64,000 bases of DNA from Anaerotignum propionicum DSM 1682 (GTDB lineage: Bacteria; Bacillota; Clostridia; Lachnospirales; Anaerotignaceae), in contig NZ_CP014223.1 of NCBI RefSeq assembly GCF_001561955.1, positions 2,666,001 through 2,730,000 on the forward strand. Reading direction: 5' to 3'. Under the pieces are notes generated by a model that had not been told where the DNA came from, did not search any database, and worked only from the letters and a program-made list of their open reading frames with translations. The translations under genes were made by a program, and so were the position numbers. Positions within the stretch are counted from its first letter, which is position 1, and each line of letters starts with the position of its first letter. Of the stretch, positions 7,638 through 63,803 are shown one piece after another.

Positions 7638-9970
7638 ATCTTCACTCCCTTCACCAATGCAACCTTTAATACATCTTCCATAGTTTTTGCCAAAACGAAT
7701 TCAATGCCATCTTTGATTTCGTCATTAATTTCTGTTAAGTCTTTGTCATTTTCCCATGGAAGAATTACTGTTTTTATGCCCACCTTCTTTGCAGCAAGCA
7801 CCTTTTCTTGTAATCCACCAATGGGCAGTACTCTGCCTCGAATGGTAACCTCTCCTGTCATGGCAACATCGTGATGCACTTCTTCTTTGATTAAAGCAGA
7901 AAGAATAGCTGTAGCCATGGTAATACCCGCAGAAGGACCATCCTTTGGCGTTGCCCCTTCGGGGATATGTATATGGATATCATTCCTTTTATAAAAATCT
8001 GGTTCTAATCCAAAGATTTTGGCTTGTGAGCGGATATAGCTGATAGCGGCTTCCGCCGATTCCATCATCACCTTGCCTACGTTCCCCGTAAGCTTAAATT
8101 TCCCGTCCCCTTCCATGGCATTCACCTCAATGGAAAGAGTGGTTCCTCCCACAGATGTCCAGGCTAAGCCACGAACAATACCAACCTGAGGTTTCACGTA
8201 AATTGTATCTTTTCCATATTTTCTTTTTCCTAGAATGCTTTCCAAGGTTTTTCCAGAAACAGTTACACTTTTTACTTCGCCCGATAAAATCTTCTTTACT
8301 GTTTTTCTGCAAATCTCACCGATTACTCTCTCCAGCTGTCTCACGCCAGCCTCTCTTGTGTACCCGTCGATGATTTGTTCTAAGGCATCATCTTTAAATT
8401 TTATTTGTCCTGCGCTTAATCCGTTTCGTTTGCACTGCTTTTCAATGAAATGCTCCTTTGCAATATGCAATTTCTCCTGAGATGTATAGCTCCCCAGAGA
8501 AATGACTTCCATTCTGTCCAAAAGTGGCTTTGGTATGGTATCCAAACTATTGGCAGTACACATAAAAAGTACTTTTGAAAGATCATAGGGCAATTCAATA
8601 AAATGATCACGGAAAGTGCTGTTTTGCTCCCCATCCAAAACTTCTAGCAACGCCGCCGCAGGATCTCCGTTATGGGAAACACCCAACTTGTCAATTTCAT
8701 CCAAAAGCATTAAAGGATTTATTGTGCCGGCTTGCTTCATAGCGTTTATAATTCGGCCAGGCATTGCCCCAATATAGGTTTTTCTGTGCCCTCTTATTTC
8801 TGCCTCATCCTTTACGCCACCGAGAGACATTCTGATATATTTACGGTCTAATGCTCTGGCAACAGAGCGAGCAATGGAGGTTTTTCCAATTCCCGGAGGT
8901 CCAACCAAACAAAGAATTGTGGGTCTCTCCTCAGGAACATTTTTTCTCACTGCCAAATACTCCAAGATACGTTCCTTTACTTTTTCCAGTCCATAATGGT
9001 CTTCGTTTAAAATCTGCTCTGCCTCAGCCAAATCAAAGCTCTCTTGGGTTGTTTCTATCCAAGGCAGGCTCAATAGTGTTTCAATATAGTTTCTGGACAC
9101 ATTGGATTCCGGAGATGTAACAGGAATCCGAAGCATTCTGGTAATTTCTTTTTCAATTGCTGTTCTTACAATCTCAGGCGGATTCTTTTTCTCCAGTTGC
9201 TTGCGGTATTTCTCGGCGTCAGCACCAATTCCGTCCTTATCACCTAACTCCTCTTGAATTACCTTCATTTCTTCCCGAAGATAATATTCTCTTTGGTTTT
9301 GCTCAATGCGAGTTTTTGTTTTACTTTCAATTTCTTTCTTAATTGTTAGAATATCTTTTTCGTTCTGCATAATCTCCAATACCGCTTCCAAGCGCTCCAT
9401 GGGATTTAGCATCTCAAGAATTCTTTGCTTACGCTCATAAGATATTTCAAGCCCTGCTGCAATCAAATCTGCCAGTTTCCCTGGCTTCGAAGCAGCTTCT
9501 ACACTGCTTAAAAGATCTGTGGCGGTACTGTTGGGTACATATTTGGTGTATTCCTCATAATTTTGAATTGCCACACGCATGTAAGCCTTCAAATAGTCAT
9601 CAGGCTCTTCTGGCAAATCTTGTTCCAAAAGTGTTATTTCTGCATAATCTGAAGAAGTTTTTGTCCAAATACTCTCCAGCCTTCCTCTTTCCTTTCCCTC
9701 TACAATAACGTGAGTCATGTTACCGGGAAGCTTAAGTACTTGCTTTATTACACATAAAGTACCAATTGTATATAAATCCTCTTGCTCGGGATTGGGTGTT
9801 TGAGGGTTAATTTGTGTAGCCAAAAACACTTGACCACCATTTTTCTCCGCTTCAGCAACGGAATCTAAAGATCTCGTCCTGTTAACAGGAAAGCTGATTG
9901 CCATATGGGGGAAAACAGTCAATCCTCTTAAAGCAATTATGGGTATTTTAATCGTTTCTTTTTTCTCCAT
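7628..9970 (-). CDS. lon: ATP-dependent protease LonA
   Basis: A 780-residue soluble Lon protease that degrades damaged and short-lived regulatory proteins. Order of domains: LAN substrate-binding domain (about 1-200), helical and coiled-coil region, AAA+ module with Walker [10 protein letters not shown] near residue 355 and Walker B LLDEIDK, then the S16 peptidase domain with catalytic Ser in DGPSAG and Lys in [10 protein letters not shown]. The start follows AGAGGTG. It lies downstream of lonB with a 458-base gap, so it may have its own promoter, and is translationally coupled to engB. No clear CtsR or CIRCE heat-shock operator was recognised upstream. Confidence 0.97.
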
Positions 9971-45780: not shown

Positions 45781-46512
45781 TTATCTCCGCTTCCTCATTT
45801 TCAGGACTGTGAAAGCAAAAATAGGTAAACGCATCATTCTGCGCCATCTGGTGGGCTGTGTAATTAGGCGGTAAAACCATTCCAAACCAAGCTTTTGAAA
45901 TAGCTTCGGTGCCCGCTTCACATTTCCTGCCATTACATCAAAGCTGCCGCCCACGCCAATGGAAACTCTGGCTCCAAAAAGACGCATATTTTCGTATATC
46001 CATTTTTCTTGTTTAGGCGCTCCCAGTCCTACTAACAGTATGGACGGAGATAGCTTTTTTATGTCATGAATTATCTTTTTTTCTTCTTTCCCATCAAAAT
46101 ATCCGTTGTGTATCCCAACAATTTTTAAACCAGGATATTTCCTTGTCATTCTTCTTGCGGCTTCCGCTGCAACGCCGGGGGCTCCGCCAAAAAAATAGAA
46201 GGTATGATCCGTTCCTGCCAATTCAGAGAAAAGATTTTGCGTTAAGTCATAACCCGCTACACGTTCCTTCAACCGAATAGAGCTGTATTTTGATGCCCAA
46301 ACTACACCGATTCCGTCAGGCACAACCATATCTGCTTCCCTCAAAATGGACATCAGCTCCTGATTCTTCTGGGCCTCCATCACAATCTCAGGGTTTGGTG
46401 TACAGATAAAATGCTGCCCCTCGGTATTCAAAAGAATTTTTACCCTTGCAATGGCTTCTTTCATGGTCACCGCATCAAAGGGTACATTTAAAACCTGTGT
46501 CAATTTCCTCAT
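45781..46512 (-). CDS. WecG/TagA/CpsF family glycosyltransferase
   Basis: A 243-residue enzyme that adds N-acetylmannosamine (or a related sugar) to lipid-linked GlcNAc-PP-undecaprenol, the committed step of teichoic-acid-like and secondary-polymer linkage units. Family motifs visible: TPNPEIVMEAQ near residue 40, the catalytic-Asp-bearing VPDGIGVVW, GGAPGVAAEAA, and GLGAPKQEKW with GVGGSFDVMAGNVKRAP. The start overlaps the GT4/CsaB gene end by four bases. Its presence is the main hint that the operon makes a wall polymer. Confidence 0.93.
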   Translation of the reverse strand: MRKLTQVLNVPFDAVTMKEAIARVKILLNTEGQHFICTPNPEIVMEAQKNQELMSILREADMVVPDGIGVVWASKYSSIRLKERVAGYDLTQNLFSELAGTDHTFYFFGGAPGVAAEAARRMTRKYPGLKIVGIHNGYFDGKEEKKIIHDIKKLSPSILLVGLGAPKQEKWIYENMRLFGARVSIGVGGSFDVMAGNVKRAPKLFQKLGLEWFYRLITQPTRWRRMMRLPIFAFTVLKMRKRR

Positions 46513-48752
46513 TTTTTTCGCCCTCTTCCGTGCCGCAAAAGCTTCGCAAGATACTGTTCATTCTGGTGCGCCTGCCCTTCCAGCAATGCCTCTTTCTCTT
46601 CTAAAATCTCAATATATTTTTCTCTATTATGGATAATATCATCCACCATTTCCAGTGTTTTATCCATATCAAATTCTTTTAGCTTTCCGCCACTGGGCAT
46701 TTCCAGCTTCTCCAAATAATATTCAATTTTAGGGTCATAAATAAACCCAATCAAGGGCACCTTTTGCCGTGCCGCAAATATCAGTGTGTGTAGACGCATA
46801 CTGAGAATAAAATTCGATAAACTAATGATTCCCATCACTTCATAGGGAGAATAGTTATTATGGAGAATATAAGCATTTTGTTTCATCTTTTTGCGAACCT
46901 TTTCACTTACCGTAATATCATTAGGCATCTGCATTGCCAAAAAGACAATGGTTCTATCGTATTTTTCAATAATGGTATCGCAAAGCTTGGCAAAACGGTC
47001 AATAAACCGATCCATCTCCCGCCAGTTGCGCACAGAAACCACAACAAGGGGTTTGTCCAACGGAATACCTTCTGCCTCCAGAAGACTTTTTGCGTCTTCC
47101 TTTGTAATGCTCTCCATGGTAAATACAGGGTCAGCTGTCACAAAGCACTTTTTCGGATTTACACCCATGGAAAGAAGTTCATCATAGGAGTTTTCCTCTC
47201 TGAGGGTAATCAAATCCGCACGATTTACCACCTGTTTCACCAACCGCCTGTTTCTTTTTCCTGAAACAGGGCCGATGCCGTTGGCATAAAGCATCACTCT
47301 TTTTCTCATAAGCTTTGCTGCAACGGTAATGGAAAGATAATACATTAAGGAGCGGGTACTGGTGCTGTCCTGCAATAGGGATCCACCACCGCTTAACAAA
47401 ACATCACAGTCTCGCACTGCACGCAAAACCTCCCAAAATCCAAAACGGTACACAGCTTCAATACCGTATTTTTCTCTGGTGCCAACAGGATTATTGGAAA
47501 GCACGGTAATGTGGTAGTTATCACCCATTTGCTGAATATTTTTGTGCATGGAAATCATGATAGCCTCATCGCCTGTATTGTTAAAGCCGTAATAACCGCT
47601 CATAACCACATGATACTGAGGTGTGTGCATTTCTTTCCAAGCTCTTTCATAAGCCTTCACACAATCCAAGGCCATTTTTGTAACGGAATAGTATTGGAAA
47701 ATAACCTCCCTACCGTAAGCCCCCGCCTGCTGACGCTGTTCTGGAGTCATCTGGTTAAAGGCATAAACCACATCTTGATACAATTGCTTTTCTGTAGACA
47801 ATTCACATCCACGACAGCAGAAATTGTTTTCTTGGGCGAGCTCTAGCTTATCTCGACCGAAAATACCAATATAACCCTCGTTACCCGCAACGATTGTGGT
47901 TTTTTCCCCAGCCATGGCTTCCAATGCCGCACGGCTGACACCCACAAATACATCCCCAACAGCTACCAGCTCATTAATATCTGTTCTGGCGCCTGTCATG
48001 GTGATACAGTTTTTCCCAATCTGTATATTCGCTTCTTTGCTTTTTTCCAACAATTCATTATAAACATCGCCGCCGCCAACAATAATCATACGAAGCCCGG
48101 GTATTGCTTTAGCAAGCTGTGGTGCAAGGGATATGAGCTGTCTTGCAACCAAAGCTCGGCTTTCATCCATACGACTTACATAAACTAAAGTAGTGTCTTC
48201 CTCCTTTAAGGAAAATTCCTTGCGTACTTTACTGCCATCCGTATTGGGAGAAAATTTTTCTGTATCAATCCCATTGATGGTAACAAATATATCTTCATTA
48301 CGCACATGGTAATTTTCAATTAAATATCTGCGAATATCCTCACTGACTGCAACAACCTTCTGTCCCCAGTTGGTCAAATACTTCAAGCCCATCCCTGTAT
48401 AAAAAACCCAGTGCGCTGATGTCACAAAGGTAAATTTCTGTTTTTTAAAGAGCAACCCGCAGATAAAGCCAGGAATTCTTGCATGGGAATGAACAATATC
48501 TACTTTCTCCTTGCGAATAATTTTTTTAAGCAAAAAGTAGGATTTTATCATCTTAAATACATTTCGTTGATGCATGGGTACTTTATAATGCTTAATTCCA
48601 ACCTCTTCCAGCTCTTTCTCATAAACACCGCCGTTTGAAGCCACAATAATATCATACCCTTGCTTTTTCAATTCCTTTGACAGCTCAACCACATGGGTTT
48701 CCGCCCCGCCGATTTCCAAGCCCATTAAAGCCATTAATATTTTGTAATTCAT
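46509..48752 (-). CDS. Fused GT4 glycosyltransferase and CsaB-type polysaccharide pyruvyl transferase
   Basis: A 747-residue two-enzyme protein. Residues about 1-375 form a GT-B, family-4 glycosyltransferase (NYKILMALMGLEIGGAETHVVELS, VVAVSEDIRRYL, TINGIDTEKFSP, VGGGDVYNELL). Residues about 380-735 match CsaB (SGYYGFNNTGDEAIMISM, LLSGGGSLLQDSTSTRSLMYYL, ANGIGPVSGKRNRRLVK, SMRLHTLIFAA), the ketal-pyruvyl transferase whose pyruvylated polymer is recognised by SLH domains. In Bacillus these are usually separate genes. The ATG at 48752 lies close to the DUF4330 stop (48767). Confidence 0.9.
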   Translation of the reverse strand: MNYKILMALMGLEIGGAETHVVELSKELKKQGYDIIVASNGGVYEKELEEVGIKHYKVPMHQRNVFKMIKSYFLLKKIIRKEKVDIVHSHARIPGFICGLLFKKQKFTFVTSAHWVFYTGMGLKYLTNWGQKVVAVSEDIRRYLIENYHVRNEDIFVTINGIDTEKFSPNTDGSKVRKEFSLKEEDTTLVYVSRMDESRALVARQLISLAPQLAKAIPGLRMIIVGGGDVYNELLEKSKEANIQIGKNCITMTGARTDINELVAVGDVFVGVSRAALEAMAGEKTTIVAGNEGYIGIFGRDKLELAQENNFCCRGCELSTEKQLYQDVVYAFNQMTPEQRQQAGAYGREVIFQYYSVTKMALDCVKAYERAWKEMHTPQYHVVMSGYYGFNNTGDEAIMISMHKNIQQMGDNYHITVLSNNPVGTREKYGIEAVYRFGFWEVLRAVRDCDVLLSGGGSLLQDSTSTRSLMYYLSITVAAKLMRKRVMLYANGIGPVSGKRNRRLVKQVVNRADLITLREENSYDELLSMGVNPKKCFVTADPVFTMESITKEDAKSLLEAEGIPLDKPLVVVSVRNWREMDRFIDRFAKLCDTIIEKYDRTIVFLAMQMPNDITVSEKVRKKMKQNAYILHNNYSPYEVMGIISLSNFILSMRLHTLIFAARQKVPLIGFIYDPKIEYYLEKLEMPSGGKLKEFDMDKTLEMVDDIIHNREKYIEILEEKEALLEGQAHQNEQYLAKLLRHGRGRKK

Positions 48753-48766
48753 ATCCACCCCGCCTG

Positions 48767-49243
48767 TCACATTTCAATATTTGTAACCTTGATTGTCGGC
48801 TTCGCATACTTTGTAAAGACATCCATTTCCGAGTTTACCTTAAGCTCAACCACACCGTCCACAAAATATCCATCTTCTTTTTCCATCACAGAGCCATCAA
48901 TAGTCATTTTCACTCTATAATAATCAGGATATTGGGCACGAACCATACCGCCATTGCCATCAGGCAAATTATAAAACAAAGGGGAGTACTCTATTCCCTT
49001 GATTTCACCGATGCAAATTCCCGTCTTATCATCAAATATTAAATCACCTTCATGAAGTGCTTTCACCGTAGGCATACGCACCTTATCAATAAAAGCGGTA
49101 TATGTGGTTTTCTCAGCCTCTTCATCAACCCCAGAGGATTCAACCCGATTAATAACACCTGTCTTTAGAACGGCTAAAGCAACCACAGCCACTAAAGTTA
49201 GTATAATCAGTATATCAACAATATTTGGTCTTCTTTTGGCCAT
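48767..49243 (-). CDS. DUF4330 domain protein, second of two
   Basis: A 158-residue protein with an N-terminal membrane segment (PNIVDILIILTLVAVVALAVL, about 6-26) and an extracytoplasmic part made of short beta strands with a VKALHEGDLIFDDKTGICIGEI block. This fits DUF4330, of unknown function. It starts two bases after its paralog stops and is followed by the pyruvyl transferase gene, so it is translationally embedded in the polymer operon. Confidence 0.82.
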   Translation of the reverse strand: MAKRRPNIVDILIILTLVAVVALAVLKTGVINRVESSGVDEEAEKTTYTAFIDKVRMPTVKALHEGDLIFDDKTGICIGEIKGIEYSPLFYNLPDGNGGMVRAQYPDYYRVKMTIDGSVMEKEDGYFVDGVVELKVNSEMDVFTKYAKPTIKVTNIEM

Positions 49244-49245
49244 TC

Positions 49246-49731
49246 TTATTCACCGTCCCTTACTTCGACAACAATACCCTTAAATGCGTACCCCTTGCCC
49301 TTTACATTTAGCTCCATACCAACCTTTACCGTTGTGCCTTCCACAGTAATATCCTTCTCCGTTTCCGTACCGTTTCCTTCCACGGTTAAAGTGATATTAC
49401 TATATCCTTCCACAGGCAATTTCTGATACGCTCCTGTTTCCTTGCTGAAAATCACCTCGGTATAGGGTTCTGAGGCTACTTCTTTGGCAACACCTAAATA
49501 TGCCCCGGTGGAGCTGTTAAAAACCTTACCTCCGATAATAGGTGCCTCTGCAGTTTCCGTCAATACTTCCCGTCCCTCTACAACGTAGGTATACGCTTTT
49601 TTAGCAGAAGTGTCCTGTTTTCCACCGCCCATAAACAGCTTAACTCCAACTACTCCTGCAATAATGATAAGCAGAATCAAAATGATATCCACAATATTGA
49701 ATATCCCAAATAGCTTTCTGTTTTTCTTCAT
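49246..49731 (-). CDS. DUF4330 domain protein, first of two
   Basis: A 161-residue protein with an N-terminal anchor (FNIVDIILILLIIIAGVVGVKLF, about 11-33) and a secreted domain with the paralogous PIIGGKVFNSSTGAYLGVAKEV block. It shares the anchor signature (NIVDIxxIL) and layout with its neighbour. Its ATG follows GGAGG and overlaps the GT4 gene end by four bases. Pairs of such small anchored proteins suggest a subunit role in an assembly complex, but that is inference. Confidence 0.82.
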   Translation of the reverse strand: MKKNRKLFGIFNIVDIILILLIIIAGVVGVKLFMGGGKQDTSAKKAYTYVVEGREVLTETAEAPIIGGKVFNSSTGAYLGVAKEVASEPYTEVIFSKETGAYQKLPVEGYSNITLTVEGNGTETEKDITVEGTTVKVGMELNVKGKGYAFKGIVVEVRDGE

Positions 49732-50840
49732 TTTTTTTCCTCCAAATAAAGCCGCTCAATTCTCGACGTCATTTTCCGTGCAGTAAAATTTTCTCTTGCC
49801 CAAGCTTTAGCATGAATAGCAAGCTTTTGATAATTTTCTTCGTCCTCAAAAACCTCTGTAATCCGATCTGCCAAGGCCTTCCAATCCCCCACGGAAACAA
49901 GATAACCATTTTCACCATGGTGGATTACTTCATTCACGCCGCCACTGTCCGTACCCACAGCAGGTATTCCCACGCTCATCGATTCAATCACCGATAGGCA
50001 GAGCGCCTCATGCTTTGACGTAATTACATTCAAATCAAGCGCAGCCTCTATTTTTTCCACATCCTTTACAAATCCTGTAAAAAAAACGTGGTCTATAATT
50101 CCCAATTCCCTTGCTTCATCCTCCAAGGAGGTTCTCAAACTGCCATCACCAATAATATAAAAAGCAAAATCCTGTCGATGATTTAAAATTTCCTGAACCG
50201 CCAGCAAAAAAGTCTTATGGTCCTTCACCTCTTCCAGTCTTGCTACAATGCCAACAGCCTTTTTCAGGGGATCACCCCCAAAGGATGAAAGGATTTCCCA
50301 TCTTTCCCCAGAAGAAATCGGTTCAATAGCGTCAATGCCATTATAAATAACCACAATCTGCTTGGGGTCCGTTCCACCGGCAATCATACTATGCTTAACT
50401 GCCTTGCTGACAGCAATAATGGTATCGCTGAACAACTTATTCAGCGTTCTTCTTGCGATTTTTTTTGCCAGCGAGCCTGGTTCCCCTTCCATGCAATGCT
50501 TTGTATTAATAATCTTAGGAACCTTGGCATGCTTCGCCGCTATTCTTGCGGTGAGGCTGGCATGGGTGTGAACAATATCAGGCTTTTCTTCCTTAAATAG
50601 TTCATAGAGTGAACTCTGTGCTTTTTTATCAAAGGACTTGTCCTCCATTTCTTTCATGGGAATCACTGCCACATCCAATGCAGTCACTGCAGCGTAAAGA
50701 GCGCTGTCGTCAGGCAAAACCACCCAAACGTCAAACCTATCCCGATTATGATGCTTCAAATAATTCAGTAGCCATCTTCCTGCCCCGCCGATATTGCGAT
50801 CAGTCAAAACATGAAATACTTTTATTTTTCTCTCTGCCAC
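49728..50840 (-). CDS. GT4 family glycosyltransferase
   Basis: A 370-residue GT-B enzyme of family GT4 that would add a sugar from a nucleotide donor to the lipid-linked polymer. Visible: KVFHVLTDRNIGGAGRWLLNYL (acceptor-side Gly loop), VHTHASLTARIAA, IIAVSKAVKHSM, VIYNGIDAI, and the donor-site E-x7-E in KHEALCLSVIESMSVGIPAVG. The start is a GTG at 50840 with GGGTG upstream and overlaps the flippase/ligase gene by 19 bases. Confidence 0.92.
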   Translation of the reverse strand: MAERKIKVFHVLTDRNIGGAGRWLLNYLKHHNRDRFDVWVVLPDDSALYAAVTALDVAVIPMKEMEDKSFDKKAQSSLYELFKEEKPDIVHTHASLTARIAAKHAKVPKIINTKHCMEGEPGSLAKKIARRTLNKLFSDTIIAVSKAVKHSMIAGGTDPKQIVVIYNGIDAIEPISSGERWEILSSFGGDPLKKAVGIVARLEEVKDHKTFLLAVQEILNHRQDFAFYIIGDGSLRTSLEDEARELGIIDHVFFTGFVKDVEKIEAALDLNVITSKHEALCLSVIESMSVGIPAVGTDSGGVNEVIHHGENGYLVSVGDWKALADRITEVFEDEENYQKLAIHAKAWARENFTARKMTSRIERLYLEEKK

Positions 50841-53800
50841 TGCTTTTCACCCACTCTCACGCTTGCCATCCCAATACCCATAAAGCACCAGAATAGCAAA
50901 ACGATACTATAATCAAACCAAATATGGTCTGTCATTCCCTGTAATAGTAATCCCGCAAAGCCGCCAAAAAAGGCCGCCAAAAGCATATGAAACCGCTTAG
51001 GAACTCTTATCATGCTGCCATAAAGCTTTTGGAAAAAGAACAGAAATAATATAATCAAAATCACAAAACCTAATATGCCAAGCTCGATAAATTCCTGTAA
51101 AAATAAATTATGCACATGGTAAGCATTAGCCGCTTCAAAGGAAAACAGTGGATAAACCTGATTAAAAGCATCCACACCAATTCCCGTTGCCCAATAGTGC
51201 TTTACAATCTCCCCACCTGCCCGATAGATTGACAACCGATATTGAGAAGAGGAATCGCTCATGGTTATGGAACTTGCCAATCTGGCCCAAAGAGACGCAG
51301 GTAATACAAAAGGCATAGCCAAAAGTCCTGCCAATCCCAGAGGGATTAACCTCCGCTCCGCCAAAAGCACAAAAAGTCCTGCGGAAAGCATTAATCCAAG
51401 CATCGCCCCTCGTGAGTTTGTCGCAAGCAGACCTAAGCAAATCACACCAAAACAGCCTAAATATAAAAATCTTCCCAGCCAATTTCGTACCTTCCAAAGC
51501 ATGCCTGCCGCAAGGGAGCCGATTAATATCAAATATTCCCCTAAAACATTGGGGTTATTGAAGGTTCCATATGCTCGCGTTTGGATATTAAAGCTTTCTG
51601 CGTCTACCCAAGCCGCATCCATGTCAACTCCAACAACATATTGATAAACCGCATAAAGGGCAATCAAAACACCCGTTGAAATCATGACAAAAATGACAAA
51701 ATCCAATTTCTCCTCAGTGTCTATACAGTCCTTGGCAACAAAAAACATTGACATAAACAGTAAGAAAATTGCCATGACTTGTAACGCTCTGGGAAAATGA
51801 TAGCTGGTAAAGCTTCCATATATTAAACAAACACCAAACAGTCCCAAAAATATACTAACCAAGCTTGTCCGTTGTACACGAATACGTCCTAAGAAAAGGT
51901 TAATTCCATACAATCCTAAAGTCCCAAGACAAAGTAGAGCCAAAAGCATTGTGGGCAAAATGGGAATAGCAAACACAATGGCGCATAAACATAAAATCAA
52001 AAAATTCTGATTAAATACTCGAAGGAAAAAGCTTTCTCCAAAGACTATTGCAAGGGCATTTCTCTTTTCTTTCACAGCCTTACCTGAAAGAATTGTCAGC
52101 CTGTGCCATGTTCTCGGTATCACTCCATGCCATGTTCCTAAAGATGCATCCCAATTTTCACGAAAAAACCCGAGAATGCCGCTTTGCCAAAATGCATCTC
52201 CTATGACTAGGCTTATTTTGCGGTAGCAAGCATAAACCATGCTTTCCGTCCAAAGATGAACCACAGCTGTTATGATTCTTTCCAGTACACGGAAGCAAAA
52301 ACTATCTTCAATTATCCAAGAAATACTTTGGAACATGCGAATATATCCTCTCTGTTCTTTTTTTCTTCCATTATGGTTGTTCTGGAAATCGGTTTTTCCT
52401 CTGTTCCTAAACTTTCCTAAAAGCGAAAATACCATTTTACCTTCCTCAATACCCAAGGCAAAGGAAAGTAACATATAAGATGCCCCTCCAATTGCTACAG
52501 GAATACCTAAAACTAAAATCCGACCGATTAATCCCGTACCCACTCTGGGTTCAAGGAAGCGAAAGCTCCCCAAAACAAAAACCAGCATGATCCCGGCACT
52601 CAATGCCATCTTACCAAGGCTAGTAATCAGTTTTTTATCAATTATTTCAGGGTAATGTTTTACTGTCGGCACCAAAAGCATCACCGCCGCCACTGTTGAT
52701 GAAGCAGCTGCTGCCAGTGCCAAACCGCCAACGCCCATAGGCTCTAATAATAGTTTGCACAGAATAGCATTCACCGCAACCGATACAACCCCTGAATAAA
52801 ACGGTCTTTTTCCATCCTGATTGGCATAAAATGCCCTACTCAAAATAGTCTGTATGCCATAGCCGATTATCCCAAGGGAGAAAAAGAATAGAGCTGTGGA
52901 GGTTAGACGGGTACCTTCAGCATCGAAAGCCCCTCTTTCATAAATCAAGGCAACTAAGGGATGACTCAATGCCATGATACCAACCATCATAGGAATTAGT
53001 AAAAACATCATAGAGCGTAGCGTGGCCTTTACAGTACTGCCAAACTCCTCCTGATTCTCTCCACTGGAAATACGAGAAAGCTTGGGGAAAATTAGATTGG
53101 CAATGGCTAAAACAAACACACCCACAATAATGGTGTATAAGTTATTGGCATACTCCAATACCGAAATGCTTTGATCGCCATTGGAAAGCTGCGAAGCAAA
53201 ACGGCAGTTAATCATAAAATTGATGGGTTGTGCCCATGTGGCAATCATAACAGGCAACATCAACTTACCGATTTTTTTCAAGCCCTCATCTCGAAAATGG
53301 AAATCCGGTCGATACCAATACCCTTTTTTCTGCAAAGAAGGGATTTGAATAAATGCCTGCATCGCCCATCCAATTAAAAAAGCCGCAGTTAATCCATATA
53401 TTCCATATTTTTTATTAAAAAAAACATAATATAAGATAATAATTGCGTTGGAAGCCACGCTGATTGCCGCAGGCACATTAAATTCGTCTAATGATTGTAG
53501 AATTCCCACAAAGGAGAAAGCAATAGCAGTAAATAGAATGGTAGGAAAAAGCATACGGGCAAGGGAGGCACACAGCTGTGCCGTTTCGTTATCAAAGCCA
53601 ACTGCAAACAGCCATACAAACTGTTCGGCAAAAATAATGCCAAATACCATTAAAACAAAGGTTACTACTGTAATAAGGGTAACAAAACGGTTGGCAAGAG
53701 AAAAGGCTTCATCCTTCCCTTTTTTTTGTAAATACTCGTTAAAGATAGGAATAAAACTTGCAGAAATTGCCGAAGCAAAAACAGCATCGAAAAAAGTCCT

Positions 53801-53959
53801 GGGGATGCGGCTGGCAAGCAAAAATGCCACTGCCTCCATACCCAAGCCATAATTTGCAGCAAGAAATTGCTCTCGCATCAAGCCAAGAACCTTCCCCACT
53901 AATGTTATCATCATCATAAAGCTGACAGCTTTCACTGCCTGATTGCCTTTTTGTGACAT
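50822..53959 (-). CDS. Fused MurJ-type lipid flippase and O-antigen-ligase/polymerase
   Basis: A 1045-residue membrane protein combining two families. Residues about 1-510 are a MOP-superfamily MurJ/MviN flippase (14 spans; GKVLGLMREQFLAANYG, FFDAVFASAISASFIPIFNEY, LPVMIATWAQPINFMINCRFAS). Residues about 640-1040 are a Wzy/WaaL-type O-antigen ligase or polymerase (12 spans, with NSRGAMLGLMLSAGL and the HVHNLFLQEFIELGILGF motif with the conserved His). The ATG at 53959 follows AGGAG. An in-frame ATG at 52336 with AGAGAGGA upstream lies between the halves and may be an old or still used start. It leads the polymer operon. Confidence 0.88.
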   Translation of the reverse strand: MSQKGNQAVKAVSFMMMITLVGKVLGLMREQFLAANYGLGMEAVAFLLASRIPRTFFDAVFASAISASFIPIFNEYLQKKGKDEAFSLANRFVTLITVVTFVLMVFGIIFAEQFVWLFAVGFDNETAQLCASLARMLFPTILFTAIAFSFVGILQSLDEFNVPAAISVASNAIIILYYVFFNKKYGIYGLTAAFLIGWAMQAFIQIPSLQKKGYWYRPDFHFRDEGLKKIGKLMLPVMIATWAQPINFMINCRFASQLSNGDQSISVLEYANNLYTIIVGVFVLAIANLIFPKLSRISSGENQEEFGSTVKATLRSMMFLLIPMMVGIMALSHPLVALIYERGAFDAEGTRLTSTALFFFSLGIIGYGIQTILSRAFYANQDGKRPFYSGVVSVAVNAILCKLLLEPMGVGGLALAAAASSTVAAVMLLVPTVKHYPEIIDKKLITSLGKMALSAGIMLVFVLGSFRFLEPRVGTGLIGRILVLGIPVAIGGASYMLLSFALGIEEGKMVFSLLGKFRNRGKTDFQNNHNGRKKEQRGYIRMFQSISWIIEDSFCFRVLERIITAVVHLWTESMVYACYRKISLVIGDAFWQSGILGFFRENWDASLGTWHGVIPRTWHRLTILSGKAVKEKRNALAIVFGESFFLRVFNQNFLILCLCAIVFAIPILPTMLLALLCLGTLGLYGINLFLGRIRVQRTSLVSIFLGLFGVCLIYGSFTSYHFPRALQVMAIFLLFMSMFFVAKDCIDTEEKLDFVIFVMISTGVLIALYAVYQYVVGVDMDAAWVDAESFNIQTRAYGTFNNPNVLGEYLILIGSLAAGMLWKVRNWLGRFLYLGCFGVICLGLLATNSRGAMLGLMLSAGLFVLLAERRLIPLGLAGLLAMPFVLPASLWARLASSITMSDSSSQYRLSIYRAGGEIVKHYWATGIGVDAFNQVYPLFSFEAANAYHVHNLFLQEFIELGILGFVILIILFLFFFQKLYGSMIRVPKRFHMLLAAFFGGFAGLLLQGMTDHIWFDYSIVLLFWCFMGIGMASVRVGEKQWQREK

Positions 53960-54019
53960 AATTGTTCTCCTGTTGACAAGCTTCCTAAGGAAGCAAAATT
54001 TTTTGCAAACACACAAGAT

Positions 54020-54100: not shown

Positions 54101-56452
54101 TTATACCTTGCCTATTTCATATGAAATATCCTGACCTTGAACACGTAATTTCAACATGCTAAAGCTGCCATTTACACCGCCATCCGTCTTCCAAAGATTG
54201 GGAAGATTGATATAACGCACACCGTCCTTTGCAGATGTCCACTGGGCAGTACCACAACAGGATACCACAAATACCGTTTTGCCTTGGGCAACATATTTAT
54301 TCAAAATCCCACGGAAATACGAAGTCTCAGCCGCAGATTTAAATTCTCCCGGTGTTTTATCCATAATAATTACAATTGTGTCATTATTTGAAGCATCCAA
54401 ATCTCTGGTTAAGCTTGCATACTGGGTAGGGTTTGTGGCACGAATGCCTCCCCCTGAGGCAGAAACCATGGCTATGCTTGTGCCACTTCTGCTTAAGAAA
54501 CGATACCCTCCATTCCAGCTCAGAGTATCCAGCTTGGGTGCTGTTTTAATATCGCTTGCGCCGCCGTAAATTGCTACCTCTGCATTGGAATCCACCGCAT
54601 CTCTTACCCTTGTTCTCACATCTGCATAAGTAGTATCATTAATCTTCCCTGTGCCGTTATAAGCCACAGTACCTGAAATATTCAAATAAAAAGCACCATC
54701 ATTTGCTTTAGTAATCTTCTTTTGCAAAGGATCTGCCGCTGTGGTGGCATTTGGTGTTGTCACCGCCTTGCAGTCCCCAACGGTTACTGAAATATAAGCA
54801 GTTTGCCCATCCCTGGTACATTTGATATACGTTGAACCCGCTTTTGTTGCAGTAAAAACGTTGGACTTCATGGTGCCAATAGAAGTGTCTGCCACCTCGT
54901 AATTTGTAGTCGTGGATACCCAATGATTGAAACCGTCTGTATCAACCACTTGCATAGCAATGGTTGCCGTTTCCCCTGCCTTTTTCAGCTTAATACTGTT
55001 TGAAGCAGGCTTCAATTTGCTTGTTGTCGCTGAAACAACCCCAGCCTGTGAAGCTGTCTTATCCTTGTAAAGAGCTGTAACTTCAAAAGTACCCTTTTGA
55101 GAAGGAATAAAATCATATCCATTCCAAGTGCCCTCCACGCCAACTGCTTGCATGGTAACCTCATTTGCGGGAATTTCTATTCGATTATAATACTCATCTA
55201 AGCCATAAACTTTAAATGTAATGGTCTTATTGGGAAGAGTGCGCACCAAGGATGGGGTTATGGCGATTTTCTCAATTTCACCTGCTTGTGCCTTCTGGAA
55301 AATGCCTACAGCATTAATTACCTTTCTTTCGGAACCGTCAGAAACCGTGTTTTTCACCGTTACCGCTGAATCATCCACAGTTTTTACTGCCATTGTAGAG
55401 GAACCACCGCCGTCTAAGTGCATGGCATTATAAGCGCCGTATTCTCTCATATAGTTGGCCATTTCGCTATGGGTTACGCCAACGCTGTCACCACGACCAT
55501 CAACCACCATAAAAATAGCAGTTTTGCCGTCTTGAGAAATACCGAATGCTGTTCTGGGCTGACGTCCTGTTGCTACAATCGCAGTAGCAGGTGCCTCAGC
55601 TCCATCAATTAGAAGCTTTCCGCCACCACCAAAAGCAAATTCTTTATTTTCAAAATCAACTGAGCTGTTAATATTTAAGGTGATAGAGTCATTCACCTGA
55701 AATACATTAGCTGCATTGTTACGATAATCCTTACTCATCACAATCAAATAGCCATCCTCGGGAACAGCTACAGTTTCTCCCGGTTGTGAAATATAGGTAA
55801 TCATGTCACCCACCACCACAAATTTTACAAGCTCAGGAAAACGTTTGTCCAAATCTGCTGTACTTTTCGCCGCCTGCTTATCAAAATAAATAGGATAAAC
55901 CATGGCAGTTACTTTGTTCATGGAAGCAAGCTCAATGGCTTTCTGACTATTGGCAAAGGTTGCAGTCATTTTAAAATAATCAAAAAAGGGATTATTGTTT
56001 TCATCCATGAAAAAGGAAGCGTACAAATCCCCATCATGATTTAAAGAAGTACCAGCCGAAACCAGTTCTCCATCCCTCATAACTGCTCCAAAAGGTGCTG
56101 AATAACTACCGGACATGCCAAAAAAGTCGGAATTCACTCCGGCAAGGGCTCCGTTATCGGTCAAAAGCTTTTTCACTGTTTCCTTTAGGCCGTACTCAAC
56201 AGTACTTTCTACTTCTTTGAATTCCAGTGTACTTTCCGTCAAATCCACCTTTAAAACATGCAGATTCTGAATCCCCGCATCTGTCATACGGCTGCTTTTT
56301 TCGTACACAACCCCACGGGTTACTGTCTGCTCTGTCTTTTGGTCATAATATGTAGTGGCACCAAAAGCCCATGTAGTGGTAACCGAAACAGTCAGTGCTA
56401 CCGCCAGCAAAGCTCCCATCAGTCGTCTCATTTTTCCTAATTGATACTTCAT
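54101..56452 (-). CDS. Secreted phosphodiester glycosidase (NAGPA-like) with Ig-like and unknown C-terminal modules
   Basis: A 783-residue exported protein. A signal peptide (about residues 1-32, ending VTTTWAFGA) is followed by a NAGPA/phosphodiester glycosidase domain (about 95-390; NSDFFGMSGSYSAPFGAVM, GRQPRTAFGI, VVDGRGDSVGVTHSEMANYM, MHLDGGGSSTMAV), which may remove sugars linked through phosphodiesters. A Big-like Ig domain lies near 480-557. The C-terminal 190 residues, with YLNISGTVAYNG and TIVIIMDKTPGEF, resemble a calcineurin-like phosphatase fold only vaguely and I cannot assign it. Start follows AAAGGAG. It precedes the flippase/ligase gene by 140 bases. Confidence 0.85.
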   Translation of the reverse strand: MKYQLGKMRRLMGALLAVALTVSVTTTWAFGATTYYDQKTEQTVTRGVVYEKSSRMTDAGIQNLHVLKVDLTESTLEFKEVESTVEYGLKETVKKLLTDNGALAGVNSDFFGMSGSYSAPFGAVMRDGELVSAGTSLNHDGDLYASFFMDENNNPFFDYFKMTATFANSQKAIELASMNKVTAMVYPIYFDKQAAKSTADLDKRFPELVKFVVVGDMITYISQPGETVAVPEDGYLIVMSKDYRNNAANVFQVNDSITLNINSSVDFENKEFAFGGGGKLLIDGAEAPATAIVATGRQPRTAFGISQDGKTAIFMVVDGRGDSVGVTHSEMANYMREYGAYNAMHLDGGGSSTMAVKTVDDSAVTVKNTVSDGSERKVINAVGIFQKAQAGEIEKIAITPSLVRTLPNKTITFKVYGLDEYYNRIEIPANEVTMQAVGVEGTWNGYDFIPSQKGTFEVTALYKDKTASQAGVVSATTSKLKPASNSIKLKKAGETATIAMQVVDTDGFNHWVSTTTNYEVADTSIGTMKSNVFTATKAGSTYIKCTRDGQTAYISVTVGDCKAVTTPNATTAADPLQKKITKANDGAFYLNISGTVAYNGTGKINDTTYADVRTRVRDAVDSNAEVAIYGGASDIKTAPKLDTLSWNGGYRFLSRSGTSIAMVSASGGGIRATNPTQYASLTRDLDASNNDTIVIIMDKTPGEFKSAAETSYFRGILNKYVAQGKTVFVVSCCGTAQWTSAKDGVRYINLPNLWKTDGGVNGSFSMLKLRVQGQDISYEIGKV

Positions 56453-58954: not shown

Positions 58955-60289
58955 CTACTGCTCCTTTGTCCCCAATATAATTCTGATATCCGCATTTGCA
59001 CCAATCTCGTTTGGTGCAACCTCCACCTTTGCATCATTGAAAAAGGATACTAAATCGGTACCAACCCCCTCGTTTTTTACTTGAATCCTTGTATAGGTGT
59101 TGTGCTGTCCCGTGTAATTAGAGGGTGAACCTACACGATACCCCGCGTCCTCCAGCTTTTTGCTATAGGTTGCAGCTAGACCGTTTATGTCCCCGCCGTT
59201 GGCAACCTCTATCAAAAGAGCTTTGCTGTCTGCGGCAGCTCCTTGGGTATCTGTTGCCGCAGCACTATAAAATACACGGTCAACCATCTCTCTGGTTGCT
59301 TCTGCATCATGAATAAAATAAGATACGCTGCCAACATATTGCCCAACACCGGGAAGGGTTTCCATGGAGACATTGCCCATATTTATTTTATCTACATAAT
59401 TTACATATTTTAATGCATCTGCCATAGAAATATCTGTATCAATATATTTGTACATCACAGAAATCAAGTCAGGCAGGTTTTTCAATATTGTTTCCGTGCT
59501 TAAAACCTTTTCTGCCAAAGCTTTTAAAAATAACTGCTGTGTTTGGATACGCGCCACGTCCCCCTCAACATAACGACGGAAGCGAACTAACTGCTCAGCC
59601 TTTTCTCCATCTAAATGTTGATCACCTTTTTTAAGATTAATCAAAGGATCCCCGGTATCTCTCATGTCCCAATACATATCCTGAGGCACGTACATATCCA
59701 CACCGCCGATGGCATCCACAATGGCACGAAATGCTTCCAAATCTATTTTAACATAGTGGTCAATTTTAATCCCCAATAGGTCTTCTATTTCCAAAACTGT
59801 ATTCTGACATCCCATCTTTTCACCACTGTAAGCGTGCACTGCATTTAACTTTGTGACCTGATTGTAAGAATGACCCTCAGCTTTTATATTAGCCTTAACT
59901 TCATCTGTAAGGGAAACTCTGGTATCTCTCGGTAAGGAAACCAGTTTAAGGCTCTCTGCCGCACTATCATAATGGACAACAAAAATAACGTCCGTACGGG
60001 TTCCATCCTTATCCACGCCAAATACCGCAACATTCATTTTAATATTTCGTTTTAGAAAAGCATCCAAAAGACTGGTATCCGACGCATTGTTGCGTACCAC
60101 TCCTTTATCTGCAAAAGGAGGATTTCCCGTTATTTTGTAATATGCAAAGCAAGCCCCACCGGCAAGCATCACAAATGCCAAAACAATAGAAACTACTATT
60201 TTAAAGAACACCCTCACTGGATTAAATCCCTTTTTCTTTGGTGCGATTCGTTCCGCTTGCCGTACAGGCTTTCTTTGTTTTCCGCTCAT
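58955..60289 (-). CDS. LCP (LytR-CpsA-Psr) family protein with LytR_C domain
   Basis: A 444-residue phosphotransferase predicted to attach lipid-linked polymers to peptidoglycan. An N-terminal membrane segment (about 28-50) precedes the LCP domain (about 85-255) with the substrate residues visible in DGTRTDVIFVVHYD, SLPRDTRV, GGVDMYVPQDM and LVRFRRYVEGDVARIQTQQLF, and a C-terminal LytR_C domain (about 345-440). It starts after ATAGGTGAG, 21 bases after its neighbour. The pair of LCP enzymes fits a polymer-attachment role. Confidence 0.94.
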   Translation of the reverse strand: MSGKQRKPVRQAERIAPKKKGFNPVRVFFKIVVSIVLAFVMLAGGACFAYYKITGNPPFADKGVVRNNASDTSLLDAFLKRNIKMNVAVFGVDKDGTRTDVIFVVHYDSAAESLKLVSLPRDTRVSLTDEVKANIKAEGHSYNQVTKLNAVHAYSGEKMGCQNTVLEIEDLLGIKIDHYVKIDLEAFRAIVDAIGGVDMYVPQDMYWDMRDTGDPLINLKKGDQHLDGEKAEQLVRFRRYVEGDVARIQTQQLFLKALAEKVLSTETILKNLPDLISVMYKYIDTDISMADALKYVNYVDKINMGNVSMETLPGVGQYVGSVSYFIHDAEATREMVDRVFYSAAATDTQGAAADSKALLIEVANGGDINGLAATYSKKLEDAGYRVGSPSNYTGQHNTYTRIQVKNEGVGTDLVSFFNDAKVEVAPNEIGANADIRIILGTKEQ

Positions 60290-60310: not shown

Positions 60311-61492
60311 TTATTCTGCCATATTTTGCTCCGATTCCGGGGTTTCAATACCATAAATTAAACTTTGAATCAAAGCCTTTGTTCCCGCTTCATCCATATC
60401 AAAGAATCTGCCACCTTCACCGGGAATGGTAACTGTTGTCATTTTTGCAGGATCAATTTCTTTTAAATACTTCACATATTTCAGTGCCTCAGAAAGAGTG
60501 ATATCACTTTCCGTCTTGTCCAAAGCAACTTGAATTAGACTGCTCATATTTTTCATAATTGATTCTGTACTACAAACTTTCGCCAAAAATGCACGCATAA
60601 AATCCTGTTGAACTTGTATTCTTTTCAGATCCTTTTGGGCATATCCCTCTCGAAAGCGCACCAATTGTTCCGCTTTTTTTCCATCCAAGTGTTGGAACCC
60701 TGGTTGAAGGTCAATATACAAATCCTGATAAGGATCAACATAATAAAGCCTGTCCTTCACTTCCATGTCCACACCGCCAATGGCATCTACAATATCACGA
60801 AATGCAGTTAAATCTACCTTAACATAGTAATCAACCTGTATTCCAAGAATTTCCTCCATCATCTTAACGGAAAAAGCACAACGGTTGTCCTCTCCTGCAT
60901 AGGCATGCAATTCCGTCAGCTTACATTCTCCATAAACACCGTCTCTTTTCGGAACAGTTCGTCCATTCTTTTCCAAAATGGAAGTCATTTCATTGGTCAT
61001 TATCACCCTTGTATCTCTGGGAACCCCGATTAAGCTGAGTGCCTTTGTTCTGGTATTAAAGCTGGCTATCATGCTCACATCGGCGCGGAATCCATCCTCA
61101 TCTGTCCCTAAAATCGCCAAATTGATAATTTCATCCTCAATTTCAGAGGGTGAAGAAGCTGATACCTTAAATGTAGGTTTCTCAGCCTTTCCTTCCCATT
61201 TTTGCAGTGCCACATATGCCTTAGAACCACCATATACCAACCCCAGAAAAAAAAGAATGCCAAAAACCATAAAAAATCCTTGCATCCTCCTTTTTTGCGC
61301 TAATCTCCTGCGCCTCACATTTCGTTTTCCTTGGGGCGCTTTGGGTGGTGCCTCTTTGTATACCCTTGCAATTGGTTTTTGCTCAACCCTTTTTCGCTGT
61401 CCTCTTACTTCTTGCCGTCGAGCCACCTGCCTTTTTATGTTTATCTCGTCACGTCTATCCCGATACTCATAATCTATTCTTTTTCTTCGCAT
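60311..61492 (-). CDS. LCP (LytR-CpsA-Psr) family protein
   Basis: A 393-residue protein with a very basic, Arg/Lys-rich cytoplasmic N-terminus (about 75 residues), one membrane segment (about 76-95), and an LCP domain with DEDGFRADVSMIASF, GVPRDTRVIM, GGVDMEVKDRLYYVDPY and QLVRFREGYAQKDLKRIQVQQDF. Unlike its neighbour it lacks a LytR_C domain. The Arg triads that bind phosphates are intact, so it should be active. Start follows GGAGAAA; it leads the LCP-LCP-udk group. Confidence 0.93.
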   Translation of the reverse strand: MRRKRIDYEYRDRRDEINIKRQVARRQEVRGQRKRVEQKPIARVYKEAPPKAPQGKRNVRRRRLAQKRRMQGFFMVFGILFFLGLVYGGSKAYVALQKWEGKAEKPTFKVSASSPSEIEDEIINLAILGTDEDGFRADVSMIASFNTRTKALSLIGVPRDTRVIMTNEMTSILEKNGRTVPKRDGVYGECKLTELHAYAGEDNRCAFSVKMMEEILGIQVDYYVKVDLTAFRDIVDAIGGVDMEVKDRLYYVDPYQDLYIDLQPGFQHLDGKKAEQLVRFREGYAQKDLKRIQVQQDFMRAFLAKVCSTESIMKNMSSLIQVALDKTESDITLSEALKYVKYLKEIDPAKMTTVTIPGEGGRFFDMDEAGTKALIQSLIYGIETPESEQNMAE

Positions 61493-61907: not shown

Positions 61908-61913
61908 TTGCAT

Positions 61914-63803
61914 ATGTCAGAAACAAACCTAAATGATAAAGATAATAAATTTTTCTTATTCCTAAAAAAATATAGAATATGGATTTTTTTAATCGCAGCC
62001 TCGGTTTTCATAACAGGTGGAGTCTTTCTCATCACTTCCAATCATCTGTATTTACTCTTCATCAATTTTTTACATAATCCTGCATTATTCATCTTGAATA
62101 TCTTACCTGTATTCCTATTAATAGTGCTCGTCTATTTTATATCCGGCAGAGCAGCCTTTTCTGCCACATGGGGTGCAGCTGTTTTTCTTCTATTATCTTT
62201 TGTTGATAAAATGAAAATAACCATGCGACAAGAGCCATTGCTACCCTCAGACTTAACCTTGGTGAAAGAAGTATGGGCCATCGTCAAAAACTTTCCACGC
62301 CCTCAGCTTATCCTTGTTGGCTTATCCTTTATGGCACTCATCGTTCTTTTGGCTTCAGCCTTCTATTTATCTAAAGGAGAAAAGCCCCTATGGAAATTCC
62401 GAATAATAGGGTTTCTCGTCTTTCTTATGATCGGGTATGGTGCTAATGCATTATTGTATGCCAATGTTAACTTATATAATAGATACCCCGTCATGGGAAA
62501 CCCCTATTTTCAAGTGAATCAATATAACTCCAAAGGGTTGATCTATTCCTTCTTCCATCAATTTAACATTACAAGGATCACATCGCCTCAGGGTTACAAC
62601 AAGGCCTTTTTTGATGAGCTGGAAGGCGCCGAGACCGTAACCACAGCAAACAATAAGCCTCATATTATCATGATTATGGGAGAGGCTTTTTCTGACTTAA
62701 GTGATAATCCCAATTTAGACTTTTCCAATTATCAAGACCCATTGGAAAACTTTAAGGAGATGGCAAGCAGCAAGAACGCAGTGAGTGGTAAAATTGTAGT
62801 GCCCGGCTTTGGCGGCGGTACCTCAAACACTGAGTACGACGTTTTAACGGCATGCCCCACCAGATTTTTAAACAATCCATTGCCTTCCTATAATTTTATC
62901 CACCAACCCTTTGACGCACTGCCTCGAAGATTGGCACAAATGGGATACGAAACCCAAGCCATTCATCCCGGTTATCAGTGGTTCTATAACCGTAAAAATG
63001 TCTATCCAAATTTAGGCTTTGAAAACAGCTACTTTCTGGAAACCTCCTTTGACTTGGCGACCCAAGGAATCGGTGGATATGTTAGCGACAAGGCAGCCAT
63101 GGACAGCATTATAAAGAACTTAGATAACCACATTAAAACGAAGGATACACCACTATTTTCTTTTACTGTGACCATACAAAACCACGGGCCTTATGGTGGT
63201 CATTATGGCACTCTGCCGAAAAGTTTTGATACGGATATTCCATTGACAGATACCCAAAAAGACTTACTGACTCAATATTTTAAAGGAATCCGCGATGCAG
63301 ACCATGAGTTGGGTCGGTTAAGAGATTATGCACAAGAAAGCACCGAACCCATTGTTATTGTATATTTTGGAGACCACCTTCCGGGTTTCTCTAATGGTAT
63401 GGAATTCTTTGACCTCTTGAATTATCAAATAGATCCAAATGGCACATTGGAGGAGCGCCTTGCTTTATATGAAACACCTTTTCTCATTTGGCAAAATGAT
63501 GCTGCAAAAAAAGAATCTCAATTTAACGAAACAGCGGAGAAGGCAAAACTGCCTGCATCCGGAGTAATCAATGCCCATTATCTAGGTGCCCTTTTGACAC
63601 AGCTGTTAGATATGAAAGGGGTTTCTCCCCTTTTTGATTACGCAAACGAAGCTCGCCAAGTTCTTCCTGCAGGTACAAACAACATCTTTGTTGATAGCAA
63701 GGGCAGTTTTTCAGACATAGCAACTAAGGAACAGCTGGATGTGATACATCGCCTTCGTGATTGGCAATACTATAAACTTTTTGATCAAACAACATTAAAA
63801 TAA
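61914..63803 (+). CDS. LTA synthase family sulfatase
   Basis: A 629-residue enzyme related to lipoteichoic acid synthase. Five membrane segments occupy about residues 1-190; the extracellular sulfatase-like domain follows (about 245-560), with the metal-binding opening KPHIIMIMGEAFSDLSD, SGKIVVPGFGGGTSNTEYDVLTA containing the catalytic Thr region, FTVTIQNHGPYGGHY and VYFGDHLPGF. It would polymerise glycerol phosphate from phosphatidylglycerol or transfer such groups to a glycan. ATG at 61914 follows GGAGGT. It is divergent from the LCP genes and ends in a terminator. Confidence 0.93.
   Translation: MSETNLNDKDNKFFLFLKKYRIWIFLIAASVFITGGVFLITSNHLYLLFINFLHNPALFILNILPVFLLIVLVYFISGRAAFSATWGAAVFLLLSFVDKMKITMRQEPLLPSDLTLVKEVWAIVKNFPRPQLILVGLSFMALIVLLASAFYLSKGEKPLWKFRIIGFLVFLMIGYGANALLYANVNLYNRYPVMGNPYFQVNQYNSKGLIYSFFHQFNITRITSPQGYNKAFFDELEGAETVTTANNKPHIIMIMGEAFSDLSDNPNLDFSNYQDPLENFKEMASSKNAVSGKIVVPGFGGGTSNTEYDVLTACPTRFLNNPLPSYNFIHQPFDALPRRLAQMGYETQAIHPGYQWFYNRKNVYPNLGFENSYFLETSFDLATQGIGGYVSDKAAMDSIIKNLDNHIKTKDTPLFSFTVTIQNHGPYGGHYGTLPKSFDTDIPLTDTQKDLLTQYFKGIRDADHELGRLRDYAQESTEPIVIVYFGDHLPGFSNGMEFFDLLNYQIDPNGTLEERLALYETPFLIWQNDAAKKESQFNETAEKAKLPASGVINAHYLGALLTQLLDMKGVSPLFDYANEARQVLPAGTNNIFVDSKGSFSDIATKEQLDVIHRLRDWQYYKLFDQTTLK

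Follow-up and report, generated by a model that had tools for sequence, protein, structure and literature searches.

Introduction

In the closest described pathways for secondary cell wall polymers (SCWPs), those of Bacillus anthracis and Paenibacillus alvei, CsaB acts on a lipid-linked disaccharide, and the polymerisation and export of the P. alvei polymer are left unsettled (PMC6030368, PMC6801904). We describe here a gene of Anaerotignum propionicum DSM 1682 in which a MurJ-like flippase and a putative ligase or polymerase of the O-antigen ligase/Wzy superfamily are encoded as one chain beside a csaB-type gene. The gene lies in a stretch of 64,000 nucleotides (contig NZ_CP014223.1, positions 2,666,001 to 2,730,000 of the forward strand), hereafter the window, whose genome is a single contig of 3.12 Mb; all coordinates below are positions in the window. 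The fusion is real, conserved and lineage-restricted, its parts are known and the pathway is of a known kind; what is new is the single chain and its place at the edge of what appears to be an exchanged block of genes, a combination that is unusual and useful. The explanation that we find best overall, and hold to be rather probable, is that the MurJ-like half would flip an SCWP repeat, that the tethered Wzy_C half would join the flipped repeats, and that the ligase of the exchanged block was joined to murJ.

The Fused Gene and Its Two Halves

The open reading frame at 50822-53959 is uninterrupted over 1045 codons, from an ATG at 53959 to a stop at 50822-50824. The initial annotation, drawn from the letters alone, had read one frame of 1045 residues running from a MurJ-like to an O-antigen-ligase-like half, and Pfam and TIGR01695 bear this out, on the minus strand, which it had left unstated. 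An alternative start, the TTG at 54016, would lengthen the protein by 19 residues; the ATG is preferred because an AGGAG lies just 5' of it. Pfam MurJ matches residues 36-472 with 303 bits (cut-off 27.4), NCBIfam TIGR01695 MurJ scores 374.3 bits against a curated cut-off of 235.55, and Wzy_C (PF04932) matches residues 839-969 (51053-51445) with 63.2 bits, above its cut-off of 31.7. The gene is divided as follows:

50822-53959, minus strand: fused gene for a MurJ-like flippase and a Wzy_C ligase-polymerase (Pfam, NCBIfam; uninterrupted in 13 of 60 genomes)
52430-53959, minus strand: MurJ-like half, residues 1-510, 14 hydrophobic segments (Pfam MurJ, TIGR01695, hydropathy, PDB MurJ at a template modelling (TM) score of 0.88 by target length)
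52337-52429, minus strand: hypervariable basic linker, residues 511-541 (low model confidence at 525-543, column conservation)
50825-52336, minus strand: ligase/polymerase half, residues 542-1045, 12 hydrophobic segments (Wzy_C, hydropathy, best match of the ligase-only model to WaaL 7tpg)

An average hydropathy profile of 13 fused proteins shows 26 hydrophobic segments, 14 in the first half and 12 in the second. In a topology with the N-terminus inside, the loop between the halves (residues 500-653, that is 154 residues with 22 K/R) is predicted to lie on the inner side and the large loop at 891-956, which carries a conserved H-x-H-N, on the outer side. The variable, basic linker is thus probably cytoplasmic, consistent with the predicted topology of both the MurJ half and the Wzy_C half.

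The full-length structural model has a mean predicted local distance difference test (pLDDT) of 85.9 and a predicted TM score (pTM) of 0.56, with pLDDT below 50 at residues 525-543; its best PDB matches are MurJ structures, followed by MATE proteins and WzxE, and 7waw reaches a TM score of 0.88 by target, so that the first half has both the 14 segments and the fold of MurJ. Modelled alone, the ligase half (pLDDT 84.1, pTM 0.87) has a WaaL-like fold, its top PDB match being the O-antigen ligase WaaL (7tpg_B, E 2.5e-5, TM 0.55/0.66) and its second the FtsWIQLB divisome complex (E 7.6e-4); beyond these two no PDB match of the model passes 0.001, and a profile search of the PDB with the ligase half returned a single match at chance level.

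Distribution of the Fusion in Relatives

The initial annotation had proposed looking for the same fusion in relatives, and it is indeed there: a single frame encodes the whole protein in 13 of 60 genomes (own genome counted), namely all eight from the genus (three being single-contig assemblies) and five that belong to three other genus groups within the family. The 17 further loci of the family that were retrieved (L015, L017-L032) all have two separate genes. Among 80 named loci, which are the best 80 of 170 relatives and so favour near kin, 23 are fused (two of them cut by contig ends), 51 have separate frames and six lack the pair; this set shares assemblies with the 60 genomes, and the two are not independent. 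Fused and split loci were scored from stop-to-stop frames, raw open-frame lengths above 1000 occurring also for some split pairs such as G032. The closest named loci are 80-83% identical and mostly labelled Anaerotignum. In 50 of the 51 split loci the two frames lie close together, L089 having a wide gap.

Since the same uninterrupted frame recurs in independent genomes, both chance and an assembly or frameshift artefact are ruled out, and the possibility that all relatives are split, which the initial annotation had named as fatal to its claim, does not hold. An A-rich run near 52360, considered as a site of sequencing error, was dropped for the same reason.

In a sample of 392 genomes of the order, 26 carry a ligase of this subtype (above 690 bits); in 25 of these the open frame is 828 to 1107 aa long, and in the remaining one (G021) it measures 511 aa. 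Six further matches, at 321-326 bits, were counted as another ligase subtype. Two of 391 genomes in the class sample pass at a stricter limit, both from the Anaerotignum family. PF04932 matches occur in 249 genomes of the phylum, and among the matches listed only the window's own frame exceeds 900 aa, the next being 844, so that many independent fusions across the phylum are not borne out in that list. Whether the fusion arose once or twice is undecided: L056, a fused locus, stands apart from the Anaerotignum clade in the best MurJ tree, and the same alignment allows a single clade of fused rows (approximately unbiased (AU) test, p 0.127), which makes the tree compatible with either origin. 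A literature search on MurJ or Wzx-Wzy fusions named no flippase-polymerase fusion among the matches listed, and one on Anaerotignum and cell wall polysaccharides found nothing on this locus, most subscription papers being outside the coverage of the search for fusions.

One has to consider that the fusion may be a neutral relic, a stop lost between adjoining and probably co-translated genes for membrane proteins with no effect on function. The reservoir for such an event exists, as 19 of the 51 split pairs share a reading frame and loss of the stop alone could fuse them (a count that the choice of loci may inflate), and a hypervariable linker is what such a history could leave; yet the fusion has been retained in four genus groups with both halves conserved, and 25 of the 26 order genomes with this ligase subtype have the long frame. 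We regard a mere relic as fairly unlikely.

The Fusion Joint and a Probable Cassette Exchange

The genes that follow the fused gene carry the evidence on how the joint arose:

49728-50840, minus strand: GT4 glycosyltransferase, in the putative exchanged cassette (domain match; identities, tree)
49246-49731, minus strand: DUF4330 protein a, cassette membership unclear (domain match; identities)
48767-49243, minus strand: DUF4330 protein b, probably in the exchanged cassette (domain match; identities, tree)
46509-48770, minus strand: fusion of GT4 and CsaB polysaccharide pyruvyltransferase, 753 aa, a flank that does not follow the cassette (TIGR03609, 287 bits)

Outside the Anaerotignum clade the ligase subtype is found in L051 and L053, where one stop separates it from murJ in the same frame, and in L056, where it is fused. 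In a ligase tree of 74 rows, the 24 fused rows together with L051 and L053 are split from the 48 others by a long branch with a support of 100. The GT4 proteins of L051, L053 and L056 are 41-48% identical to that of the window, whereas 48 other split loci average 34 and do not exceed 39, and DUF4330b behaves likewise (37-46%, with 33 others reaching at most 32); DUF4330a shows no clear separation (37-41%, with 29 others reaching up to 39). For the GT4-CsaB protein the order is reversed, with 53-63% in these three loci and 72-73% in four loci that are near by MurJ. Tree tests agree: a clade of the fused rows with L051 and L053 is allowed by GT4 (AU p 0.588, the constrained tree being better than the free one) and by DUF4330b (AU p 0.397) and rejected by MurJ (AU p 2e-5) and by CsaB (1.8e-58), while the ligase tree rejects a grouping of Anaerotignum with five loci that are near it by MurJ (AU p 2e-43).

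Identities and tree tests therefore support a history of the ligase and GT4 that differs from that of MurJ and CsaB, with the DUF4330 genes, DUF4330b above all, probably in the same block. It follows that the fusion joint would sit at a boundary of cassette exchange. The initial annotation had suggested that the fusion arose by loss of a stop; this stands as part of the history, and it is incomplete in that the ligase found here and that of the usual partner are not orthologous, the former seeming to come from a block with a history of its own.

L053, a metagenome-assembled genome (MAG) labelled Oscillospiraceae, has the same ligase subtype at 7552-9030 in the murJ frame after one stop, and its MurJ and CsaB group with those of other Oscillospiraceae-labelled MAGs; by its trees, L053 is likely a case of transfer of the block. 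In another locus, L109 (7532-10174), the ligase and the next gene, GT4, form one frame of 881 aa (Wzy_C at 286-420, GT4 domains at 524-856); genes of the block thus fuse in more than one way.

What the MurJ-like Half May Flip

In Escherichia coli MurJ, the charges R18, R24, D39, R52 and R270 are reported to be essential (PMC4790310). Only R24 is identical in all 23 of 23 fused rows; R18 is replaced by K, R52 by F, R270 by N or T, and D39 by V, S, A, N or E. Gaps aside, the 56 split rows show the same pattern, save that the R270 position holds T, N, S or D and that nine retain D39. These lost cavity charges point away from transport of lipid II, in a way that is suggestive only, because the same source describes Streptococcus pyogenes YtgP, which keeps three of eight such charges and still complements MurJ-depleted E. 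coli, and a Burkholderia cenocepacia MurJ that tolerates loss of charge at D39 and R52 (PMC4790310).

The half could instead be the cell's own lipid II flippase, in which case the fusion would couple the supply of peptidoglycan precursor to the ligation of a wall polymer. Its best named family is MurJ, by the TIGR01695 score given above, and its nearest fold is that of MurJ in the PDB, while the tolerance of YtgP and of the B. cenocepacia protein blunts the residue argument. Against this stand the single identical charge of five in every fused row and the presence in the genome of two other MurJ/SpoVB-type proteins (514 and 548 aa, neither above the SpoVB cut-off), besides a further weak match of 32 bits. 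We consider a lipid II flippase here to be distinctly unlikely, and the MurJ-like half a probable wall-polymer flippase. A flippase and a ligase-superfamily half in one chain, as the initial annotation had it, is thus upheld by homology, fold and split relatives; it is the label "MurJ-like" that is better read in the sense of a wall polymer.

The Ligase Half

By PF04932 and the fold, the second half belongs to the O-antigen ligase/Wzy superfamily, as a putative polymerase or ligase. In an alignment of 46 ligases, S308, R309 and G310 (S-R-G) and H407, H409 and N410 (H-x-H-N) are invariant; these residues may correspond to the catalytic Arg and His of WaaL.

An Internal Start Between the Halves

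Where the linker meets the second half, two further features are found, both of which had been described beforehand and are present:

52334-52336, minus strand: internal ATG at codon 542, probably where the ligase originally started (split relatives start close by; 22 of 24 fused proteins have the Met)
52346-52353, minus strand: Shine-Dalgarno-like site AGAGAGGA, nine bases upstream of the internal ATG (sequence; anti-Shine-Dalgarno pairing)

At residue 542, the Met of L056 is shifted by one column and L040 carries Leu instead; the neighbouring columns (522-541 and 543-545) are conserved in at most 14 of 24. L040, from Chakrabartyella piscis and the same gene as L013, reads CTC at the site of the internal start. 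Pairing with the anti-Shine-Dalgarno sequence averages -7.05 at the junction ATGs (18 located of 22 rows, the four others being L040, which is without the ATG, and three not located by motif), the corresponding means being -2.43 at the other in-frame ATGs (n = 877) and -6.49 at the genes' own starts (n = 21). When synonymous codons are sampled with the amino acids unchanged, the pairing is already -5.36, the observed value being -6.97 at a mean percentile of 0.32 (19 located of 24 related rows), so that most of the signal arises because the linker is rich in K, R and G; strong selection for a Shine-Dalgarno site, which we had entertained, is weakened by this control. A Met retained inside a hypervariable linker is better evidence, and it favours internal initiation having been kept.

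Taken further, these observations could mean that the frame mostly yields two proteins, a free ligase from 52336 and a full-length chain that is minor or a by-product. The Met in 22 of 24 proteins, amid columns that never exceed 14, and a pairing at the junction close to that of genuine starts speak for it; the synonymous control and the CTC of C. piscis speak against it, and it fails to explain why the stop was lost and remained lost. Two separate products as the main outcome seem to us unlikely. For the tethered chain that we prefer, internal initiation at 52336 would be plausible without being obligatory, and because of the C. piscis sequence it would not be universal; the earlier suggestion that both forms may be made is retained to that extent.

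The Locus and Its Inferred Polymer

The remaining genes of the locus that bear on the polymer are the following:

45781-46512, minus strand: WecG/TagA family glycosyltransferase (Pfam and NCBIfam)
54101-56452, minus strand: phosphodiester glycosidase (NAGPA) protein, directly upstream of the fused gene (Pfam; locus comparison)
58955-60289, minus strand: LytR-CpsA-Psr (LCP) protein (profile search)
60311-61492, minus strand: second LCP protein (profile search)

CsaB, a TagA-family protein and LCP proteins at the locus, and SLH proteins in the genome, belong to what is expected of a CsaB-type SCWP locus, and this gene content fits a pyruvylated SCWP. Genome-wide there are 34 SLH domain matches, three LCP genes and one Wzy_C, that of the fused gene. 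Among the 80 related loci the order is kept, with matches to GT4 in 72 (four of them cross-matches between GT4 domains), to GT4-CsaB in 71 (one a cross-match) and to TagA in 45, counts that are lower bounds owing to contig ends; the NAGPA protein is matched in 41, two on the other strand. The GT4-CsaB protein is a second fusion in the locus, and an old one, because it is matched so widely.

The GT4 gene and the 3' end of the fused gene share 19 bases (50822-50840), which suggests translational coupling. The two DUF4330 proteins stand in tandem (48767-49731), the second of them seeming to share the history of the ligase, and they may work with the polymerase; a literature search on DUF4330 found no paper, most subscription papers lying outside its coverage. 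Beside both LCP genes, on the plus strand at 61908-63803, lies a Sulfatase-family protein of 631 aa, possibly an LtaS-like enzyme.

Proposed Mechanism

We propose that TagA, CsaB and two GT4 domains would assemble the repeat on undecaprenyl pyrophosphate in the cytoplasm, that the 14-helix MurJ-like half would flip it, and that the tethered 12-helix Wzy_C half would join (or transfer) the repeats at the outer face, after which LCP proteins would link the polymer to peptidoglycan and SLH-domain proteins would bind it. Tethering would set the two activities at a 1:1 ratio and bring flipping and polymerisation to the same place. As for its origin, a block with the ligase and GT4, and probably the DUF4330 genes, would have undergone exchange in the interval from murJ to csaB, with an in-frame junction linking its ligase to murJ; the original start codon of the ligase is mostly kept, and a free ligase is perhaps also made.

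Several points weigh against this account. The B. anthracis SCWP model expects WpaA and WpaB to polymerise and ligate, without evidence of activity (PMC6030368). The sequence of the second half fits polymerase and ligase activity alike, and the full-length pTM of 0.56 lends no support to a fixed contact between the halves, so that the tether may be a mere leash; split relatives manage without the fusion, which is thus not required. As to the exchange, the groups of the AU tests were defined with the trees already at hand, long branches occur in several rows, and of the other loci 30 entered the GT4 tree and 28 the CsaB tree, chosen to give a broad spread. In the free GT4 tree the group is not separated from L110, whose ligase is of the other subtype, or from the very long L065, which is a cross-match to the GT4 domain of the CsaB fusion; starred branches of the DUF4330b tree place four other loci among it. 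Beyond the Anaerotignum clade, moreover, the subtype is represented by no more than three loci.

A bolder version would have the tethered flippase-polymerase pass repeats directly from one half to the other, a free polymerase arise from the internal start, the polymerase half be exchanged within a cassette of ligase, GT4 and DUF4330, and the DUF4330 proteins serve as polymerase co-factors, perhaps as regulators of chain length; taken together, this is tentative, and we think it doubtful.

A natural fusion offers a 1:1 pair for structural work and for an assay of whether flippase and polymerase act as one complex, and some of its carriers are cultured strains. It also hints at what flips and polymerises a CsaB-pyruvylated SCWP, the steps described as unsettled for P. 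alvei (PMC6030368, PMC6801904).

Comparison with Known Systems

The Wzx and Wzy pathways have the same two predicted activities, in the same order, on a repeat carried by undecaprenyl pyrophosphate, and WzxE is among the fold matches of the first half; in the pathways as described, the two are separate proteins, whereas Anaerotignum has one chain. With the lipid II flippase MurJ (TIGR01695) the first half shares family score, 14 segments and fold; it differs in that R18, D39, R52 and R270 are not kept, in being fused to a second enzyme and in lying in an SCWP locus. The second half resembles WaaL and Wzy (PF04932) in Pfam family, in its 12 segments, in its large outer loop and in its top PDB match, 7tpg; unlike them, it is too distant for a PDB profile match, stands in a wall locus of Gram-positive type and is fused.

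At the level of the pathway, the SCWP route of B. anthracis and P. alvei comprises TagA, CsaB, Wzy-like and LCP proteins; TagA-family, CsaB, LCP and SLH proteins are all present in A. propionicum, where, in contrast, flippase and polymerase are fused, CsaB is fused to GT4 and two DUF4330 genes are added. The two-gene murJ-ligase pairs of other Lachnospirales and of Oscillospiraceae-labelled MAGs have the same locus order and often overlap or share a frame; they encode separate proteins, and the ligase is of the other subtype in all tested split rows but L051 and L053.

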